This document shows, piece by piece, positions 18,896 to 22,103 of a DNA stretch of 64,000 nucleotides. The stretch's first letter is position 1. Each line of letters starts with the position of its first letter. Source of the stretch: Phycisphaerales bacterium (GTDB lineage: Bacteria; Planctomycetota; Phycisphaerae; UBA1845; UTPLA1); the NCBI GenBank assembly GCA_022360095.1, contig JAKSDK010001569.1, positions 62,001 to 126,000 on the forward strand, in the 5' to 3' direction. The notes under the pieces were generated by a model. The model was not told where the DNA came from, made no database searches, and was given only the letters and a program-made list of their open reading frames with translations. The translations under genes were made by a program, and so were the position numbers.

Positions 18896-18975
18896 GTCAC
18901 ATCGATCAGGGTCCCGCTCGGGCTCGTCGAGCGGATTCCACCCGCCTTCGTTGACTTCTAGTGATCCAGACCGCG

Positions 18976-19539
18976 CTATTTCGCCGGCATCGGGCAATAC
19001 GCGCCCTCGGAAAAACCCTCCGACTCAATCCCAAAGGCATGATCGAAACGGGCACGATAGTTCTCCCAGGCGACGGCGGACGTCAGCTCGACAAGTTGTT
19101 CTTCATTGAGGTGTTTTTTTAGGTCTTCAAATAGATCCTGGGGAACATTGACAGGCGTCTTCGTCATCTCGACGGCGTAACGCAAGACCAATTTTTCGAG
19201 ACCACTCAGGGCAGGCGAGCTTTCGAAGTCATCCAGGGCCTGGAGTTTCTCTTCGGACAAGCCCTGTTGTCTGCCGACCGCAGACCCGATGTCGATTCAG
19301 AACGGGCAGCCGATTCGCCGCGCCACCTCCACGCTTGCAAGCGTTTTCAACTGCGGTTCGATCGACTGGGCCGCTTCCTGCCCCATTTCCATGTGGGCGT
19401 AGGCCCTCAACAGACGGGGATGATGTGCATAAATCTTGACTGGAGTGACGACGCGCCCAACCTTGCGGCGAGTCATAAAGTAAGCCAGGCGGACGAGGAA
19501 CCCTGCTTTTTTCTTCTCGACACCTTGGATTCTGGCCAT
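18976..19539 (-). CDS. Probable selenoprotein, carboxymuconolactone decarboxylase / AhpD-like, CPFU motif
   Basis: A 187-residue protein if the TGA at 19299-19297 is read as selenocysteine (residue 81). The N-terminal part (MARIQGVEKKKAGFLVRLAY) ends RRIGCPF; the same frame continues after the TGA as IDIGSAVGRQQGLSEEKLQAL, then LSGLEKLVLRYAVEMTKTP and NYRARFDHAFGIESEGFSEG. In ordinary members of this alpha-helical family the motif is CPxCIDIGSAVGR, so the stop codon stands exactly at the second redox Cys of CxxC. No other frame damage is seen. A stem-loop directly downstream fits a bacterial SECIS. Such proteins act as peroxidase-like or thiol-disulfide redox proteins; the partner is unknown. 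The ATG follows the TAG of the beta-ureidopropionase by one base, so translation is coupled. The alternative is a single nonsense mutation (TGC or TGT to TGA). SelA, SelB, SelC and SelD are not in this window. Confidence 0.75.
19269..19299 (-). promoter_or_regulatory. Candidate bacterial SECIS element
   Basis: Reading the minus strand, the TGA is followed by 11 bases, then GTCTGC-GGTCG-GCAGAC: a perfect 6-bp stem with a 5-base apical loop starting GG. The loop begins 17 bases after the TGA. Published models of bacterial SECIS elements ask for a small apical loop with a G among its first two bases, roughly 16-37 bases after the UGA, so this fits. The lower stem is weak. SelB binding is inferred, not shown. 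Confidence 0.6.
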
Positions 19540-19540
19540 G

Positions 19541-20410
19541 CTACAACTGCACAATTTCTTCGTAGGTCTCGGGCCGTCGATCGCGGAAAAACTGCCACGT
19601 GTTTCGCACCTCTCGGATCAAATCGAGATCGAGATCGGCAAGTACGATGTCGTCCTCCAGGCGTTTGCCTTCGGCCATGATCTGGCCGCGAGGGTCGCAG
19701 AAATAACTCGTGCCGTAGAACTCGCCCATGCGCCACGGTTCCTCGTAGCCCGGCCGATTGATCGCACCGACAAAGTATTGATTCGCTACCGCGTGCGCCG
19801 GCTGTTCCAGTTTCCAGAGGTATTCGCTCAACCCCGCGACCGTCGCCGACGGATTGAAAACGATTTCCGCACCATTCAGTCCCAGGCAGCGAGCGCCGTC
19901 CGGAAAGTGCCGGTCGTAACAGATATAGACGCCCACTCGCCCGACGGCGGTGTCGAAGACCGGATAGCCCAGGTTGCCGGGACGGAAGAAGAATTTTTCC
20001 CAGAAGCCGGGTGCGACGTGCGGGATGTGATTCTTGCGATAGGTGCCCAGGTACGAACCGTCCGCGTCGATGACCGAAGCCGAATTGTAATAGACGCCGG
20101 TTATTTCCTCCTCATACATCGGCACGACCATCACGACGCCGTGCTTCTTGCACAAGTCCTGCATCAATTGAGTCGTCGGGCCGTCGGGGATCCTCTCCAC
20201 GAGCTGGTACCACTTCGTATCCTGATCGCAGCAGAAGTAGGGTCCGTAGAATAGCTCCTGAAGGCAGATCACCTGCGCCCCTTCGCCCGCGGCCTTTTCG
20301 ATCAAGGCCACGTGCTTGTCCATCATCGACTTCTTGATTTTTTCGATGGATGAGGTTCCCGGTTCGGACAGCGTTGCTTGAATCAAAGCGCCTCGAACAA
20401 TGCGTGCCAT
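19541..20410 (-). CDS. Beta-ureidopropionase-like nitrilase superfamily amidohydrolase
   Basis: A 289-residue carbon-nitrogen hydrolase with the full catalytic triad: Glu in VICLQELFYGPYF (near residue 50), Lys in GTYRKNHIPHV (near 125) and Cys in VGVYICYDRHFPDGAR (near 160). The stretch NGAEIVFNPSATVAGLSEYLW, with AINRPG and EFYGTSYF, matches beta-ureidopropionases more closely than general nitrilases; N-carbamoylputrescine amidase is the main alternative. The predicted reaction is hydrolysis of N-carbamoyl-beta-alanine or N-carbamoyl-beta-aminoisobutyrate to the beta-amino acid, CO2 and ammonia, the last step of reductive pyrimidine breakdown. The start is the ATG nine bases after GGGAG. 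It is divergent from methylmalonate-semialdehyde dehydrogenase, which would handle the downstream product of thymine breakdown, and is coupled to the selenoprotein gene. Confidence 0.85.
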   Translation of the reverse strand: MARIVRGALIQATLSEPGTSSIEKIKKSMMDKHVALIEKAAGEGAQVICLQELFYGPYFCCDQDTKWYQLVERIPDGPTTQLMQDLCKKHGVVMVVPMYEEEITGVYYNSASVIDADGSYLGTYRKNHIPHVAPGFWEKFFFRPGNLGYPVFDTAVGRVGVYICYDRHFPDGARCLGLNGAEIVFNPSATVAGLSEYLWKLEQPAHAVANQYFVGAINRPGYEEPWRMGEFYGTSYFCDPRGQIMAEGKRLEDDIVLADLDLDLIREVRNTWQFFRDRRPETYEEIVQL

Positions 20411-20594
20411 CGCAAACATCTCCCAGTAAAGATTTCAGTTCATCTATTGGCGACCAGCCGACAATGCCTCTGGTTCGCGAACCATTTTACTGCCAATCAA
20501 GGACTTTTGCACATACGTTCCGATGCCGAATCTAGACGCTGCCTGCTCAATTGAATACGATATTCCATGGCAATTTGATATAGGAGGCGACAAC

Positions 20595-22103
20595 GTGACA
20601 ACTGCAACCGCCACAGAAACGGTCAAACTCTTCGTCAACGGCGATTTCGTCAAATCCAAGGCGACTCAATTCAGTCCCGTCTACAACCCTTCCACGGGTG
20701 ACCAGATCGCTCAGGTGCCGTTTTGCTCCGCTGAGGAAACGGGTCAGATCGTGCAGGCGGCACACGACGTATTTCCCGCTTGGCGAGACACACCTGTCGT
20801 CGAGCGGGCACGAATCATGTTTCGCCTGGTTTCGCTGCTGGAGAAAAACGCGGATGATGTCGCGCGCATCATTTCGCGAGAACATGGGAAGACCCATGCC
20901 GAGTCCCTGGGTTCGATCCGTCGTGGCATCGAAATGGTCGAGTTCGCCTGCGGCATACCGACGCTGACCATGGGCGACACGGTCCATAATCTTGCTCAGG
21001 ATGTCGACTGTGAAACCTACCACCATCCGCTCGGCGTTTGTGTCGGCATCACGCCGTTTAACTTTCCATTCATGGTTCCGCTGTGGATGATCCCCGTTGC
21101 GATCACGTGCGGTAATACGTTTGTCTTAAAACCCAGCGAGAAAGTGCCTCTCAGCGTAATGCGCCTGGCTGAATTGCTGCAAGAGGCCGGGCTGCCGCCG
21201 GGTGTATTCAACATTGTCCATGGAGACAAGACATGTGTTGATACGCTTCTGAAGCATCCGCTGGTCAAGGCCGTCAGTTTTGTCGGGAGCACGCCGATTG
21301 CGAAGTATATTTATGAAACGGCGGTTCAGAACGGCAAACGATGCCAGGCCAACGGTGGAGCAAAGAATCACATTTTGATCATGCCCGATGCCGATATCGA
21401 CCGCTCCGTTGCGGCGTTACAAACCAGCGCCTTCGGTTGTTCGGGCCAGCGGTGCATGGCCGGCAGTTTGGCCGTGGCCGTCGGCGAAGCCGGCGAGCCT
21501 GTGGTCGAGCGCCTTGTCGCCAGTGCCGACAAAATGAAGGTCGGCCCCACAGATCGAGACTCGGGCGCCGACATGGGTCCGGTGATTACCCGTCAACATC
21601 TCGATGGCTTGCTGGCCAACATCGACCAGGGCGCGAACGAAGGCGCGAAGCTGGCGCGTGACGGCCGAAGCGTCAAGGTGTCTGAAACGCCCGATGGTTT
21701 TTACCTCGGCCCGACCATTTTCGATCACGTCGAGCCTGAGATGCATGTTGCCAAGACTGAATTGTTCGGCCCCGTGTTAAGCGTTGCACGCGTGAAGGAC
21801 CTCGACGAGGCGATCAACATGACCAACAGCCACCCTTACGGCAACGGTGCGGTGATCTACACCCGCAGCGGCCGGGCCGCTCGCGAGTTCAAACACCGGG
21901 CCGGGGCCGGCATGATCGGCATCAACGTCGGTGTGCCCGCTCCGATGGCGATGTTCCCCTTCACGGGCCACGATGCCAGCTTCTTCGGCGATCTGCACAT
22001 CCAGGGGCGGGAAGGCATCGCGTTTTATACACAGCAAAAGATGATCATGACCCGCTGGCACGACGGCGGCGGAGCCGGTGAATTTGTGACGACGAGGGGA
22101 TAA
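20595..22103 (+). CDS. mmsA: CoA-acylating methylmalonate-semialdehyde dehydrogenase
   Basis: A 502-residue aldehyde dehydrogenase. Family marks: PSTGDQIAQVPFCSAEE, GITPFNFPFMVPLWMIPVAITCGNTFVLKPSEK, NGGAKNHILIMPDAD, the catalytic Cys in AFGCSGQRCMAGS, and NVGVPAPMAMFPFTG with SFFGDLHIQGREGIAFYTQQK at the end. The NGGAKNH motif (in place of the usual glutamate general base in ELGGK) is diagnostic for the CoA-acylating MMSDH subgroup, which makes propionyl-CoA or acetyl-CoA from methylmalonate or malonate semialdehyde with NAD+. Pathways served are valine, inositol and thymine/uracil breakdown. GTG was chosen because AGGAGG lies seven bases upstream; the frame also opens at 20523. Divergent from the beta-ureidopropionase with 184 bases between them, likely holding both promoters. 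Confidence 0.93.
   Translation: MTTATATETVKLFVNGDFVKSKATQFSPVYNPSTGDQIAQVPFCSAEETGQIVQAAHDVFPAWRDTPVVERARIMFRLVSLLEKNADDVARIISREHGKTHAESLGSIRRGIEMVEFACGIPTLTMGDTVHNLAQDVDCETYHHPLGVCVGITPFNFPFMVPLWMIPVAITCGNTFVLKPSEKVPLSVMRLAELLQEAGLPPGVFNIVHGDKTCVDTLLKHPLVKAVSFVGSTPIAKYIYETAVQNGKRCQANGGAKNHILIMPDADIDRSVAALQTSAFGCSGQRCMAGSLAVAVGEAGEPVVERLVASADKMKVGPTDRDSGADMGPVITRQHLDGLLANIDQGANEGAKLARDGRSVKVSETPDGFYLGPTIFDHVEPEMHVAKTELFGPVLSVARVKDLDEAINMTNSHPYGNGAVIYTRSGRAAREFKHRAGAGMIGINVGVPAPMAMFPFTGHDASFFGDLHIQGREGIAFYTQQKMIMTRWHDGGGAGEFVTTRG

Follow-up and report, generated by a model that had tools for sequence, protein, structure and literature searches.

A predicted AhpD/CMD-fold selenoprotein with a SECIS hairpin inside its coding sequence in a Phycisphaerales bacterium

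A 64,000-nucleotide stretch of Phycisphaerales DNA, referred to here as the window, carries a gene that is highly likely to encode a genuine selenoprotein in which the UGA at codon 81 is read as selenocysteine (Sec). The gene (18976..19539, minus strand) runs from an ATG to a TAG, 19539-18976, and its sole interruption is a TGA at 19299-19297. Translation through this TGA gives a protein of 187 amino acids containing the sequence IGCPF-U-IDIGSAVGR, with Cys78 and Sec81 forming a CPFU motif. A standard ORF finder yields two pieces of 85 and 94 amino acids, as the sequence-only reading of this DNA had anticipated for automated gene calling. Its proposal that these two in-phase minus-strand frames, parted by one TGA, are a single gene is confirmed by the reading frame, and the assignment draws further on a match to PF02627, on relatives and on an AlphaFold model. 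In the proposed mechanism, SelB and tRNA-Sec would read the UGA as Sec under the direction of a short hairpin starting 11 nt 3' of the UGA, and the product would be an all-alpha thiol-selenol oxidoreductase of the AhpD/CMD fold.

Relatives were sought in 84,980 species genomes. Twelve close relatives (L018-L029; 48-71% identity, aligned over all or most of the protein) were found in Acidobacteriota, Phycisphaerae and Gemmataceae, and all twelve, from independent assemblies of Acidobacteriota and Planctomycetota, share the TGA at the corresponding codon. One of them, L027, has a frameshift 5' of the TGA as well. Further searches, covering 61 relatives and 392 phylum genomes, gave more TGA genes in the phylum genomes. 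These include a tandem pair in one genome (L057, G063:C13:12450-13675), both copies having a TGA and a hairpin. A gene from a genome of the window's family (L038) is the same as L020 at all codons compared. The distant homologues L061, L067 and L072 have Cys, encoded by TGC or TGT, at the Sec codon (19297..19299, minus strand, in the window) and their frame is continuous. The TGA had been read as replacing the second Cys of an AhpD-like CxxC motif, with Cys or Sec expected there in homologues; this is borne out, Sec being found in the close relatives and Cys in the distant ones. Purifying selection was observed 3' of the TGA, with pN of 0.16-0.33 vs pS of 0.59-0.81. Nonsynonymous change is lower after the TGA than before it, which argues for in-frame translation of the sequence beyond it, and residues 82-90 just after the TGA, IDIGSAVGR, are conserved as protein. 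This sequence comparison supports both recoding and purifying selection.

A pseudogene that acquired a nonsense mutation, or a Cys codon misread in sequencing or assembly, would be in keeping with the splitting of the frame by gene calling and with the fragmented assembly of 1918 contigs. However, the presence of the same TGA codon in independent assemblies from two phyla makes a sequencing error very unlikely, the constraint persists 3' of the TGA, and the codon bias and covariation described below are specific to the hairpin. When relatives were checked for gene decay, a conserved Sec gene was seen instead, and this explanation can be given very little weight. Still harder to credit is the notion that translation really ends at the TGA and that what follows is a separate protein initiated, for example, at TTG 19260. 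The 94-amino-acid ORF is indeed present but the conserved IDIGSAVGR segment precedes this TTG and the Cys forms L061, L067 and L072 are uninterrupted.

The candidate SECIS element for Sec insertion at codon 81 is a hairpin (19269..19285, minus strand) with a 6-bp stem, GTCTGC/GCAGAC, and the loop GGTCG. Its stem begins 11 nt and its loop 17 nt from the TGA. Published criteria for bacterial SECIS elements specify a loop of 3-9 nt with a G within loop positions 1-2, a stem of 4-16 bp, a distance of 16-37 nt from the UGA and an energy <= -7.5 kcal/mol (PMC13188914). The loop GGUCG (5 nt), the 6 bp, the 17-nt distance and the folding energy of -8.9 kcal/mol calculated for the isolated hairpin GTCTGC-GGTCG-GCAGAC all lie within these ranges, although a longer segment has a competing fold. 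Thus sequence, spacing and published criteria agree with the earlier view that a hairpin of 6 bp and 5 loop bases falls within the bacterial SECIS range. Once the folded window RNA extends at least 38 nt past the TGA, another structure becomes the thermodynamic minimum, a weakness of the case, and in the 42-nt ensemble the SECIS hairpin has a probability of only ~3%. The 48-nt region taken by itself has an energy z-score of -1.33, which is not significant, and an Rfam search of 18900-19600 returned no match.

It had also been argued that a nonsense mutation would rarely be accompanied by such a stem-loop. Random synonymous recodings using the codon usage of the window retain all six Watson-Crick pairs in only 0.55% of cases, so the exact stem is rare as claimed, but ~6% of the same recodings produce a Watson-Crick hairpin of 6 bp somewhere within the allowed zone and the stem by itself is therefore weak evidence. 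The case for a SECIS element draws its strength from the codon bias and covariation seen when 17 distinct subfamily genes are compared, in all of which the position of the hairpin is constant. The codon for Ser86 is TCT in 16/17 genes, compared with 9/146 of the remaining Ser codons of these genes, and that for Arg90 is AGA or AGG in 16/17, compared with 20/224 other Arg codons (Fisher p of 3e-14 and 6e-15, respectively, gene relatedness being ignored). The single exception, L059, uses TCG and CGG in place of TCT and AGA and yet keeps all pairs, U-A having changed to G-C with one U-G. The outermost stem pair has as its 3' member the opening base of a variable codon; even so, C-G occurs there in five genes, G-C in another five and U-A in three. 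Overall 96% of cells are paired, and the covariation of 0.238 exceeds that of shuffled alignments (0.096 +/- 0.020, 0/500 as high), a comparison inflated by relatedness, and also exceeds every slid control, in which relatedness is retained. Relatives have CGUGG or a similar loop where the window has GGUCG, in accordance with the published pattern. Judged across these genes, the hairpin is under selection at the RNA level. The near-fixed TCT and AGR codons, set against a strong opposite background, show clearly that a coding sequence has been made to carry a hairpin.

The window is part of one contig (C450) of an 8.5 Mb assembly which is 94% complete. The genome had been proposed as the place to look for selA, selB, selD and selC, and all four were found. 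The selB gene scored 307 + 28 bits, over the curated cut-off, and includes a C-terminal winged-helix match; selA (536 bits) adjoins it. The tRNA-Sec gene, selC, scored 70.6 bits against a cut-off of 47 and has the anticodon TCA. The selD gene (376 bits; L033, G000:C196:212251-213174, minus strand) carries its own in-frame TGA, CAG-U-AGK, and is thus a Sec-containing selenophosphate synthetase. The tetranucleotide composition of the sel contig matches that of the window (r of 0.959) no less closely than window-internal segments match each other (0.92-0.96) and its GC content also fits, so that the Sec machinery very probably comes from the same organism as the window. A second AhpD-like selenoprotein gene is present in this genome (L087, G000:C1030:307459-307920, plus strand); its motif is CHYU and, unlike the window protein, it retains the AhpD His. 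Its hairpin, GGAGCA-GGUC-UGCUCC, lies at almost the same distance from the TGA as in the window gene, and selD is able to form a hairpin with the loop GGUGC. Loops of the GGU type in all three genes would be expected if a single SelB reads them.

If near-cognate readthrough or an altered genetic code placed another residue such as Trp or Cys at the TGA, the frame would also be open, as it is under any code with TGA as an amino acid. Given that the genome has a complete Sec machinery, that relatives have Cys at precisely codon 81 and that the SECIS hairpin is under selection, such decoding is very improbable and Sec is preferred.

The 48 rows of a tree divide into 37 with Sec and 11 with Cys, which requires at least four changes between Sec and Cys. 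The window protein falls in a group (support 99/98) whose other members are 16 Sec rows and a long-branched Cys row of uncertain position. The patchy presence of the gene and the occurrence of its nearest relatives in another phylum suggest acquisition by horizontal transfer. A sister group from the window's phylum (L066 and L068-L070, family f77) has Sec in the motif CPFU-xDI(T/S)(A/T)(H/Y)FARE and lacks the SAVGR hairpin sequence, so the SECIS of that group must differ. An unannotated match on a Cupriavidus plasmid (H2) has CEFC, i.e. it is a Cys form rather than a selenoprotein.

Upstream of the selenoprotein gene lies a CN-hydrolase gene (19541..20419, minus strand), whose stop codon TAG (19543-19541) is separated by 1 nt from the ATG at 19539. 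The hydrolase most closely resembles beta-ureidopropionases and N-carbamoylputrescine amidases, hence the earlier name beta-ureidopropionase is plausible but not settled. The claimed coupling of the two genes holds as adjacency and fails as a conserved link: among 17 genomes of the family the hydrolase, a family core gene, occurs in 15/17 and the selenoprotein gene in 2/17, and only in the genome of the window is the latter found 3' of the hydrolase. A divergent methylmalonate/malonate-semialdehyde dehydrogenase gene (MMSDH; 20523..22103, plus strand) adjoins the hydrolase in at least 5 of the 15 family genomes, and this pairing makes it context only. Elsewhere the 5' neighbour of the selenoprotein gene encodes an amino-acid permease in L024-L026 and a PLP-dependent enzyme in L020 and L038. 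A functional link to the hydrolase/MMSDH pair was rejected on these counts and neighbours, and the association with the beta-ureidopropionase-like gene is lineage-specific and probably without functional meaning. In one Acidobacterium selB lies immediately 5' of the selenoprotein gene (L023:2260-5054).

The protein is predicted to have the AhpD/CMD fold. Its AlphaFold model is all-alpha with a mean pLDDT of 75 and a core above 90, and matches Pseudomonas aeruginosa AhpD (7xw1) with a probability of 1.00 and a TM score of 0.90 by target. Cys78 and Sec81 superpose on the redox CxxC of AhpD-like structures, so that a CxxU redox pair is present within the predicted AhpD fold. The His found four residues past the second redox Cys of classical AhpD is replaced by Gly85. 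At this position L078, 2gmy and 2ijc have His, and most sister groups have Asn, Ser or Thr. The classical His, H137 of Mycobacterium tuberculosis AhpD, participates in a proton relay. In the mechanism envisaged, Cys78 and Sec81 would cycle via a selenenyl-sulfide bond, with reduction of peroxide or another small oxidised substrate as the probable role. Without the proton-relay His the chemistry may differ, and a peroxidase-like function, although slightly favoured, is less sure than the recoding. A reaction of the CPFU clade other than peroxide reduction, for example the reductive loss of a leaving group of the type catalysed by the same-fold debrominase Bmp8, with the low selenol pKa replacing the His, appears rather unlikely. 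The absent His makes these proteins a system for asking whether Sec assumes its role.

AhpD-like CxxU selenoproteins have been known since 2005, when 27 sequences plus four with the CMD domain were described from the Sargasso Sea (PMC1088965); hundreds were found in GOS data (PMC2398784) and a 2026 review includes them (PMC13188914). The window gene is thus new at the subfamily level only, an extra example and not a new phenomenon. The literature on YciW or groundwater selenoproteins yielded nothing specific to its group. What is added is a well-supported subfamily from Acidobacteriota and Planctomycetota which reaches none of the NCBIfam cut-offs, and since these curated models miss it the genes risk being split in annotation. 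The best family match of the window protein is NF053654, 'YciW-related (seleno)protein' (residues 1-174, 129.6 bits, E 1e-37), far under the cut-off of 310 bits, indicating a sister group rather than a member; the closest sequence to that model in this analysis is L071 (CVFU-QDIN, 265 bits). With the AhpD-like selenoproteins (COG2128/TIGR01926) it shares the CxxU motif, the AhpD likeness, a SECIS right after the UGA and widespread Cys homologues, but it scores 31 bits against the TIGR01926 cut-off of 81.8, and its group is distinguished by CPFU-xDIGSAVGR, by its hosts and by the lack of the motif His. The four marine CMD-domain selenoproteins (PMC1088965) share PF02627 (28.4 bits in the window protein, above the cut-off of 23) and CxxU, a likeness at the level of domain and motif. 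Among known structures, P. aeruginosa AhpD/PA0269 (7xw1, 2ijc), Atu0492 (2gmy) and the debrominase Bmp8 (6ohi) have the fold of the window protein with matching positions of the redox residues; 2gmy and 2ijc combine CxxC with His, whereas the window protein combines CPFU with Gly85.
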